Of a DNA stretch of 64,000 bases, positions 18,905 to 34,563 are shown piece by piece. The position numbers were made by a program, and so were the translations under genes. The notes beneath the pieces were generated by a model that was not told where the DNA came from, did no database searches, and worked only from the letters and a program-made list of their open reading frames with translations. Position 1 is the first letter of the stretch. The number at the start of each line of letters is the position of its first letter. The stretch spans positions 1 to 64,000 of the forward strand of contig NZ_FXYF01000013.1 of NCBI RefSeq assembly GCF_900184945.1, written 5' to 3'. This DNA comes from Antarctobacter aquimaris. GTDB lineage: Bacteria; Pseudomonadota; Alphaproteobacteria; Rhodobacterales; Rhodobacteraceae.

Positions 18905-19597
18905 GTGCGGCAGGAAATCGAAGCGCCCGGAGAGCCCAAGCGCCGCGATTTCACGCAGGCCGAGATCGGCGCCATCGCCCACCTGTGGCGCGGCGAGGTC
19001 TACCGCAGCACGATCTGGCGCACCCGGCTGGACACGACGACGAACTGGGCGGTGGTCACGCTGGGGATCGCGCTGTCGATCGCCTTCGCCTCACCCGGCG
19101 CCTCGCCGCTGCCGCTGGTGCTGGTCGGGGTGCTGATCCTGCTGTTCCTGGTGCTGGAGGCGCGCCGCTACCGCTATTTCAACGTCTGGCGGGCGCGCTG
19201 CCGCTACATGGAGCGGCATTTCTACGCCCCCATGCTGACCGAGGGCGACCTGCACCTCGAAGACAACTGGCAGGATGTCCTGGCGCAGGACTACCTCGCG
19301 CCGAACTACCACATCGGCTTTGTCATGGCGATGGGACGGCGGATCCGGCGCAACTACCTGTGGATCCTGACCATCCAGACGACCGCCTTCTTCGGCAAGA
19401 TCGCGGTGCACCCGACCGCCCTGACCAGCGTCGCGCAGATCTGGGAACGCTCGGCCATCGGGCCGCTGCCGGGCGGCGTGACGGTCGCCTTCATCGGGCT
19501 GTACCTGCTGGGGTTCTTCGGCATCGCGGTCTGGAGCTGGGCCAGCGACTATCGCCGGGCCAAGCAGCGCGGCAGCCGGGGCAGCGCGATGGGCTGA
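18905..19597 (+). CDS. DUF2270 membrane protein
   Basis: 230 residues from GTG 18905, preceded by a strong AGGAGG. It has an N-terminal helical segment (FTQAEIGAIAHLWRGEVYR), two close membrane helices (NWAVVTLGIALSIAF and LPLVLVGVLILLFLVL), a conserved cytoplasmic RYRYFNVWRARCRYMERHF, then two further C-terminal helices (near IQTTAFFGKI and VAFIGLYLLGFFGIAV). This is the DUF2270 layout; function unknown. The 222 bases to the divergent MttB-like gene should hold both promoters. Confidence 0.85.
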   Translation: MRQEIEAPGEPKRRDFTQAEIGAIAHLWRGEVYRSTIWRTRLDTTTNWAVVTLGIALSIAFASPGASPLPLVLVGVLILLFLVLEARRYRYFNVWRARCRYMERHFYAPMLTEGDLHLEDNWQDVLAQDYLAPNYHIGFVMAMGRRIRRNYLWILTIQTTAFFGKIAVHPTALTSVAQIWERSAIGPLPGGVTVAFIGLYLLGFFGIAVWSWASDYRRAKQRGSRGSAMG

Positions 19598-19620
19598 GGC
19601 GCATCGTCGCCCCGGGCGGC

Positions 19621-19706
19621 CAAGCGGCTTCGAAGCCGCTTGAAGCGTTTTTCCAAAACGCTTGAATGCCTTTGCAAAGGCATTCAAGGCCCTTCGAAGG
19701 GCCTTG
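19621..19706. repeat. Run of four back-to-back palindromes
   Basis: Four inverted repeats follow one another with no spacer: 19621-19642 (half-site CAAGCGGCTTC), 19643-19663 (arms AAGCGTTTT/AAAACGCTT, loop TCC), 19664-19685 (half-site GAATGCCTTTG) and 19685-19706 (half-site CAAGGCCCTTC). The first, third and fourth are perfect 22-base palindromes with different sequences. They lie between convergent genes, so one or more may be terminators, but no T-tract follows. Confidence 0.85.
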
Positions 19707-19713
19707 ACCCAGC

Positions 19714-20016
19714 TCAGCCGAGCGGAAAGACCTCGATCGCCGCGCTTGCCACGACCAGCGATGCGCCCCCCGGCAGGGCCACCGCCATGCCGCCCGGCAC
19801 CACGCGCAGGTCCATGTCCCCGGCCCCGAAGGCCCGGTTCAGCCCGCTCGCATCCAGTTCCGACGGCACCGGCACGCCCAGCGTGACCACCACCTGGCAC
19901 TCCACGTCCACATGCAGGCGCGCGCGCGCCTGCGCATCCGCCAGCGCCCGCTCCGCCGCCTGCCCGGCCGTGTCGCCCACCCCCATGCCCATCTGCACGA
20001 TCAGCCGCCGCCTCAT
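19714..20016 (-). CDS. Lin0512 family protein, copy 1
   Basis: 100 residues. It starts MRRRLIVQMGMGVGDTAGQAAERAL and continues with a DVECQVVVTLGVPVP strand, the typical opening of the small Lin0512 family. The fold is probably an alpha-beta dimer; no activity is known to me. Its ATG overlaps the stop of the upstream paralogue by four bases (ATGA), so the two are coupled and may form a heteromer. Confidence 0.75.
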   Translation of the reverse strand: MRRRLIVQMGMGVGDTAGQAAERALADAQARARLHVDVECQVVVTLGVPVPSELDASGLNRAFGAGDMDLRVVPGGMAVALPGGASLVVASAAIEVFPLG

Positions 20017-20354
20017 GCCGCAGCCTCCGCAAAACGCACGGTGATGGCGACATGCGCCATGACGGTGGGGTTGCCCTCCCCCTCGGGGCGCGGCACGTCC
20101 AGCCCGCCGAAGCCGACCGTAATATCCGCCTCGCCATAGGGAAAGACCTCGGCCAGCCTGGCCTTGTCCACCTTGTCGGGCTGTTGCACCGCCACCTGCA
20201 CCACCAGGCGCATGTCGGATTTCTCGCGCCCCAGCCACTCGGCCGCGTTGATCGAGCATTTCCACAGCGCGTCCCGCAGGGCCCGCGCCGCTGCCTCGGT
20301 GTAGTCGCCCCGCCGCAGCGACGTCCCCAGTCCGAATTCCGTCAGTACCTGCAT
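20013..20354 (-). CDS. Lin0512 family protein, copy 2
   Basis: 113 residues from ATG 20354; an upstream start would add a seven-residue MIDRGGG stretch that is not family-like. MQVLTEFGLGTSLRRGDYTEAAARALRDAL aligns in pattern with copy 1, and the second half carries DITVGFGGLDVPRP and HVAITVRF. It is the first gene of a coupled two-gene operon. Two sequence-divergent neighbours with one stop/start overlap suggest unlike subunits. Function unknown. Confidence 0.75.
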   Translation of the reverse strand: MQVLTEFGLGTSLRRGDYTEAAARALRDALWKCSINAAEWLGREKSDMRLVVQVAVQQPDKVDKARLAEVFPYGEADITVGFGGLDVPRPEGEGNPTVMAHVAITVRFAEAAA

Positions 20355-20453
20355 TCCGCCCCCCCTGTCGATCACCCGGCAAGGGGACCCCGCGCGCCGC
20401 AGAATGGCAAGGCCATTTTCGGCACGCGGGGCCGTCTGACGCCGGCCGGCACG

Positions 20454-25713: not shown

Positions 25714-25734
25714 ACGACCTCTGACCCGGGCGAG

Positions 25735-25778
25735 CAAATTCCATGTGTGGAATTTGCAAATTCCGCATACGGAATTTG
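25735..25778. repeat. Double palindrome with CAAATTCC/GGAATTTG arms, copy 1
   Basis: Two adjoining 22-base hairpins: 25735-25756 (arms CAAATTCCA/TGGAATTTG, loop TGTG) and 25757-25778 (arms CAAATTCCG/CGGAATTTG, loop CATA). The AT-rich arms stand out from the GC-rich surroundings. It fills the gap between convergent genes and is a relative of the element at 34515-34558. Confidence 0.88.
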
Positions 25779-25783
25779 TCCGC

Positions 25784-34485: not shown

Positions 34486-34514
34486 GCCGATGCGAACCGG
34501 CGCAGCCTGGCGGG

Positions 34515-34558
34515 CAAATTCCACACATGGAATTTGCAAATTCCGTGTGTGGAATTTG
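34515..34558. repeat. Double palindrome with CAAATTCC/GGAATTTG arms, copy 2
   Basis: Two adjoining hairpins: 34515-34536 (arms CAAATTCCA/TGGAATTTG, loop CACA) and 34537-34558 (arms CAAATTCC/GGAATTTG). With the flanking GCGGG and CCCGC (34510-34563) the whole is nearly one 54-base palindrome with a single mismatched pair. It sits directly in front of the ung start, where a ribosome site would be, and splits the trp operon. Confidence 0.88.
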
Positions 34559-34563
34559 CCCGC

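Follow-up and report, generated by a model that had tools for sequence, protein, structure and literature searches.

Between two convergent genes of the window (the whole stretch of 64,000 nucleotides of Antarctobacter aquimaris DNA analysed here), positions 19621-19706 are taken up by four inverted repeats placed end to end, three of which are perfect 22-bp palindromes. Why should two genes that end face to face be separated by such a row? As the DUF2270 and Lin0512-family genes end at 19597 and 19714, the array makes up most of the 116-bp gap between them (Table 1). The first-pass annotation had reported this run, and its coordinates proved exact. The run is also beyond chance, since order-3 Markov simulations of the window and of two 400-kb samples (one simulation each) contained 0 units, while the real sequences contain 4, 26 and 26. 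A known Rfam RNA family was rejected, as the four matches obtained for 19400-19900 all lie far below gathering scores, and so was plasmid carriage, as the window's own array has no match in the plasmid collection.

Table 1. Palindromic units of the array and neighbouring genes (positions in the window)
Feature	Position	Strand	Description
DUF2270 gene	18905-19597	+	ends 23 nt before the array
Unit 1	19621-19642		CAAGCGGCTTCGAAGCCGCTTG; perfect 22-bp palindrome; core GCGGC; centre CG; word 4 read from the other end
Unit 2	19643-19663		9-bp arms AAGCGTTTT/AAAACGCTT; 3-nt loop; word 3
Unit 3	19664-19685		perfect over 22 bp; core TGCCT; centre GC; word 2
Unit 4	19685-19706		perfect 22-bp palindrome; core GGCCC; centre CG; word 1
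Lin0512-family gene	19714-20016	-	convergent; ends 7 nt from the array
Second Lin0512-family gene	20013-20375	-	upstream of the first Lin0512-family gene

The four repeats had been described as unrelated in sequence, a description that has to be abandoned, as all of them fit one 20-bp frame, AA-N5-TT-SS-AA-N5-TT (unit 2 with a 3-nt centre), in which the core is variable and self-complementary and the centre deviates occasionally. Successive 20-bp units of the window array are 1 base apart, and the symmetry of unit 3 reaches 28 bp (19661-19688). The run represents a dispersed element, each copy of which consists of two to five such palindromic words with linkers of 1-6 nt and a unit-to-unit distance of 21-26 bp. 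A DNA search of the window's own genome (G000), a check suggested by the first-pass annotation, found further runs, and the nine regions that were read out carry arrays of 3-5 palindromes. The frame matches this genome 150 times, versus 3 times for the reversed control, and two tandem units match 55 times, versus 0 (some of these matches straddle neighbouring units). The frame alone is common to these units, as there are 32 different cores among 70 of them, and it is kept between genera while the cores range from GC-rich to AT-rich.

When genomes with at least 15 matches and at least three times the control are considered enriched, and those with at least 50 matches and ten times the control strongly enriched, 24 genomes, the window's own among them, show enrichment of the frame out of 198 sampled from the family (one per genus), and 10 show strong enrichment; a reverse excess occurs in one genome. 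Tandem units are present in all seven of the strongly enriched genomes in which they were sought (14-50 each, control 0) and in none of a further 141 genomes from the class (one of them a member of the same family). Scanning 84,980 species genomes with an oriented two-word pattern returned 46 stretches. Those of Tropicibacter, Pseudoponticoccus, Nioella and Rhodovulum are from Rhodobacterales (NCBI families Roseobacteraceae and Paracoccaceae), and the remaining genera presumably belong to the same order, except for two stretches labelled Enemella. The latter (L125 and L129) are from assembly JAFKDC01, labelled Enemella evansiae (Actinomycetota), where a flanking protein is 80% identical to one of the window's genome; the assembly appears to be genome G002 of the window's family, and its label was treated as wrong. 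As far as searched, the element is limited to one family-level group of Rhodobacterales, and it is patchy there. No earlier description of the arrays was found in the literature searched, a corpus that lies outside most subscription journals and that contains none of five core strings, and the passages cited from PMC5217627, PMC13155455 and PMC2267715 contain none.

The words of an array can follow a fixed order. In G025, a genome taken as Pseudoponticoccus marisrubri, there are 15 four-unit arrays that mostly read GGCCC, CGCGT, GCGGT, GCCGC, six of them exactly so. Read on the minus strand, the window array has this same order with altered cores (GGCCC, TGCCT, GCGTT, GCGGC), while G035 uses other words. 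Either orientation of the word order relative to gene direction occurs, as would be expected of a two-way element. When the arrays of G025 are compared position by position, the words are 83-95% identical, linkers of equal length (linker lengths vary by one or two bases) 28-39% and the 10 nt outside the arrays 46-50%, this last figure probably reflecting a shared G+C-rich composition.

Within an array, the words differ. Not one of 273 within-array unit pairs shares a core, versus 18.5 expected when units are reshuffled within genomes; for the window's genome alone the count is 0 of 88, versus 3.2 expected (P = 0.03). Among 47 arrays of at least three units, 68% form local hairpins only and none forms a helix of at least 18 bp, while the corresponding values are 23% and 36% for random units of the same genome and 0% and 85% for equal units. 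Swapping G025 words at the same position yields arrays that behave like the real ones, with no long helices, and swapping in words from any position does not; consequently, the mutual non-pairing resides in the ordered vocabulary. It may have been inherited from one ancestral array, and the result on word differences is partly explained by the common word order.

The two arms of a unit change together, with almost no half-changed intermediates. Among 55 matches found by the frame only (864 kb), 46 have perfectly complementary cores, versus 3.7 after permuting arms. When 25 four-word arrays of four genomes are aligned, 99.1% of the cells pair; both sides have changed in 55 cells, 1 cell is a wobble and 8 lack pairing, although the rows are related paralogues, so that cells are not independent events, and the window's row is misaligned in helix 3 of A1. 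Of 36 pairs, 19 are changed on both sides; 0 of 500 shuffles were as high, and no slide comes near. One outcome named in advance as speaking against the run, a single hairpin kept and the rest varying at random, is the reverse of what is seen, since the units vary and yet stay palindromic.

The 55 double changes comprise 27 GC-AT transitions, 21 flips of GC to CG and 7 other transversions. Wobble pairs are nearly absent: 2 of 2151 pairs over 239 units, versus 15 of 452 for the 43 terminators with a U-tail in that DNA sample (P = 3e-10; the array and terminator finders differ somewhat in tolerance). By contrast, the passages cited from PMC5381666 describe Bacillus cereus terminators in which GC-AU switches make up 79% of all switches, versus the 27 of 55 found here, and wobble is the main intermediate. 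The evolution of the arrays is therefore unlike that of common terminators.

The missing intermediates may reflect either DNA-level symmetry or arm copying by template switching, for both of which the rarity of wobble pairs and the frequent flips leave room. A protein-binding array and template switching had been among the first-pass suggestions. The arrays could, for instance, be a mutational product, in which template switching would copy arm onto arm, making palindromes perfect without any function, while an unknown copying process would spread them. Paired changes almost without intermediates and 21 flips among 55 are what one-step arm copying predicts, and template-switch homogenisation of inverted-repeat arms has been published, according to the passages cited from PMC7202029 and PMC8604942. 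We nevertheless regard a purely mutational origin as improbable, as it leaves unexplained the fixed AA/TT frame, the location at gene 3' ends, the word order and the conservation of words beside much less conserved linkers.

The location of the arrays was evaluated in two unbiased stretches of 400 kb (C16 of the window's genome and contig 1 of G025). In gaps of 40-800 bp, with the window excluded, 6 of the 59 convergent ones hold a multi-unit array, as do 7 of the 254 co-directional ones and none of the 99 divergent ones (Fisher P = 0.002 for convergent versus divergent and 0.02 for convergent versus co-directional). A gap of 1363 bp that was called divergent, and that may contain a missed gene, holds one three-unit array; with gaps of any length, the counts become 6 of 64 convergent versus 1 of 106 divergent (P = 0.012). 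A looser count, which also took in three single units, units spaced more widely and the window itself, gave 9 of 67 convergent, 9 of 278 co-directional and 0 of 111 divergent gaps, and in the pattern-selected set an array was present in 3 of 165 divergent gaps. In the unbiased stretches, 13 of the 14 array-bearing gaps have a gene 3' end and 7 of the 14 are co-directional. When all sources are joined, the 80 multi-unit arrays, which include orthologous copies in Nioella (three species) and count two adjacent dimers separately, comprise 35 in convergent and 34 in co-directional gaps, 4 whose gap was called divergent and 7 lying at the edge of a locus, and a 3' end is adjacent to 73 of them at a median of 15 nt; the loci behind these numbers are 46 chosen by pattern and 8-kb regions of the window's genome chosen around known arrays, with genes from a home-made caller. 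In one region of that genome (L043 6544-6694, G000:C16:206544-206694), two copies of a two-unit array, separated by 65 bp, lie between a pair of co-directional genes that, judged by eye, look like an ABC transporter permease and ATPase.

A multi-step terminator had also been among the first-pass suggestions. The place of the arrays, in most cases directly behind stop codons, and the preference for convergent gaps agree with an end-of-transcript element; the part that fails is a row of ordinary intrinsic terminators, as no U-tract follows the arrays. As in intrinsic terminators, a GC-rich stem-loop lies behind a gene, although the cores are AT-rich (mostly with a GC linker) in G121. Some units and their T-rich linkers look like Rho-independent terminators, 4 of the 5 terminator matches in array gaps are the units themselves, and in the window two overlapping terminator-like matches fall on unit 1. 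However, the 8 nt after the last unit contain a mean of 0.89 T (108 ends) and only 1 of the 108 ends has five or more T, which, together with a wobble rate unlike that of U-tailed terminators, makes a simple row of Rho-independent terminators very improbable. The converse idea, an exclusion of canonical terminators from array gaps, was suggested by a first sample (0 of 9) and did not hold in a larger one (P = 0.24 and 0.46). A general outer stem, suggested by the Nioella dimers, was also rejected, as the mean longest pairing between flanks of 79 arrays is not above that of swapped flanks.

We favour a different reading, to which we give about even chances: from the position and pairing observed, we infer that the run acts on RNA as a two-way, multi-hairpin end-of-transcript element. 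As a palindrome reads alike on both strands, the transcript of either convergent gene would fold in the same way, as a series of short hairpins independent of one another. Such hairpins would stall the polymerase and block 3'-5' exonucleases, thereby defining and protecting the 3' end of each transcript. As the lack of U-tracts argues against self-sufficient intrinsic termination, termination would more likely depend on Rho or on another mechanism, and the hairpins would then serve to halt exonucleases; they would thus probably act together with Rho. The words of one array would be different so as to let each hairpin fold only on itself; equal words would be expected to merge into a single long duplex in RNA, and a single long palindrome in DNA, open to RNase III or to palindrome-cutting nucleases. 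The arms are probably kept perfect by selection on two strands, perhaps helped by template-switch copying of one arm.

The main facts that an end-of-transcript role explains poorly are the missing wobble pairs and the symmetric centres. In 195 of 239 units, and likewise in 73 of 90 from co-directional arrays, the two central bases, which an RNA loop would leave unpaired, form CG or GC. Both facts could be explained by use of the two strands, by template switching or by recognition of the DNA. In the last case, a dimeric protein, either gyrase or a nucleoid protein, would recognise the units as double-stranded dyad sites through their AA/TT frame, or the units would form cruciforms that absorb supercoils between convergent genes, as proposed for enteric BIMEs. 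Such an element would account for symmetry running through the centre, for a frame kept while cores go from GC-rich to AT-rich between genera, for the unit spacing of 21-26 bp, for the orientation-free use, for the rarity of wobble pairs and for the enrichment between convergent genes. By contrast, a protein blind to the N5 core would not keep the two halves complementary, as they are in 46 of 55 matches, and half of the array-bearing gaps in the unbiased stretches are co-directional, with a gene 3' end at nearly all of them. Consequently, we consider a DNA-level element unlikely, though less so than a mutational product.

Several sites are shared between genomes: three are common to three Nioella species; one behind a 3-hydroxyisobutyrate dehydrogenase-like gene is common to the window's genome and G025 (with a different dimer in G137); one behind an FAA-hydrolase gene is common to the window's genome and G002; and two further pairs join the window's genome with Antarctobacter and Rhodovulum with MAG HLUCCA09. 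At a moaA-like gene of Pseudoponticoccus and Tropicibacter, four words are kept, and all four cores differ and stay paired. As the other 29 of 30 loci of the moaA-like gene and 28 of 30 loci of the dehydrogenase gene have no array, arrays come and go. DUF2270 itself is a further shared site, and the first-pass annotation had recommended looking there in relatives. A DUF2270 homologue is present in 8 of 34 searched genomes, and six of the seven loci from other genera (L061-L067) have no multi-unit array, in a scan that left out two partial extra matches in G099 (L068, L069). The seventh (L065 1435-1479, in G005) carries an array of two AT-rich units in the same frame, which starts 12 nt after the stop codon of the DUF2270 homologue, the same slot as in the window. 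DUF2270 was thus rejected as a fixed partner, given the six loci without an array and the different array of G005.

Contacts between neighbouring hairpins were also considered. Among the matches listed, neighbouring loops are complementary above chance in G121 (21 of 33, 10.6 expected, after dropping three of 36 rows that straddle two units) and in G186 (16 of 23, 10.3 expected, these being 23 of 50 rows), and G121 has seven GG-CC neighbours and no GG-GG or CC-CC. Values fall below expectation in G035 (3 of 16, 6.8 expected) and G025 (13 of 51, 20.3 expected), and they were considered near it in the window's genome (10 of 38, 12.2 expected), the Nioella loci (9 of 13, 5.9 expected) and other loci (28 of 45, 25.5 expected). 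Loop-loop kissing was therefore rejected as a general rule, and the hint in G121 and G186 is a genus-specific lead.

Other palindromic elements accompany the arrays. At 25734-25779 and 34514-34559 of the window, in gaps after open reading frames, there are two-hairpin elements of the form GCAAATTCC-N6-GGAATTTGC that share a GC; they are AT-rich and related to the arrays, but their loops are longer. Similar two-hairpin elements occur at G000:C16:142974, 180994, 294327 and 297250, and the two 6-nt loops at 180994 are exact reverse complements. In the same contig, a 142-bp direct repeat (L034 12841-13021, G000:C16:32841-33021) has other adjacent palindromes, GAACCCTCCACCGGAGGGTTC and CACCGCGCTCCGCGCGGTG.

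A broader proposal can be put forward tentatively, with somewhat less confidence than the end-of-transcript reading of the run itself. Several genera of Rhodobacterales would have a genus-specific vocabulary of palindromic words in one invariant AA/TT frame, in an order fixed at least in some of them, and would use it as two-way punctuation at gene ends. The arms of these words would evolve by matched change with hardly any wobble intermediates, and the words of an array would not pair with one another; the whole would be a two-strand or DNA-level element and not merely an RNA hairpin. The arrays add a genome-wide, lineage-restricted class of gene-end element, in bacteria that have no transcript 3'-end map in the literature searched. 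Their variable yet matched arms allow selection through intermediates to be compared directly with one-step template switching, and their words, which do not pair with one another, offer a natural case of orthogonal hairpin design.

Some known systems resemble the arrays. The intercistronic hairpins of the puf operon of Rhodobacter capsulatus also lie behind a gene and protect the upstream message, but they belong to a single operon, whereas the arrays are a genome-wide ordered repeat. REP elements and BIMEs have been proposed to protect mRNA 3' ends and to bind gyrase. In enterobacteria and pseudomonads, they are dispersed intergenic palindromes found in clusters, as here (described in part in PMC2817692), and the arrays are likewise extragenic and located at gene 3' ends. 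They differ in having nothing in common beyond the AA/TT frame, several ordered words and perfect palindromes; whereas REP elements have one conserved palindromic sequence, the units of the window's genome have 32 different cores. Y1_Tnp (PF01797), which we take to be the RAYT transposase family, is present in 1 of 10 array-rich genomes (G186), 0 of 10 array-poor genomes and 5 of 14 control genomes, and RAYT-driven spread was rejected on the first of these counts. In Haemophilus, the paired DNA uptake signals that act as terminators are also dispersed short motifs whose inverted pairs form a 3'-end stem (in the passages cited from PMC5217627); the freely varying core of the arrays, with no single uptake word, rules out uptake signals of this type. 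Finally, bidirectional intrinsic terminators are symmetric hairpins common to convergent genes that also show compensating changes (PMC5381666, same passages), from which the arrays are set apart by 2-5 hairpins in a row, the lack of a U-tract and the near absence of wobble intermediates.
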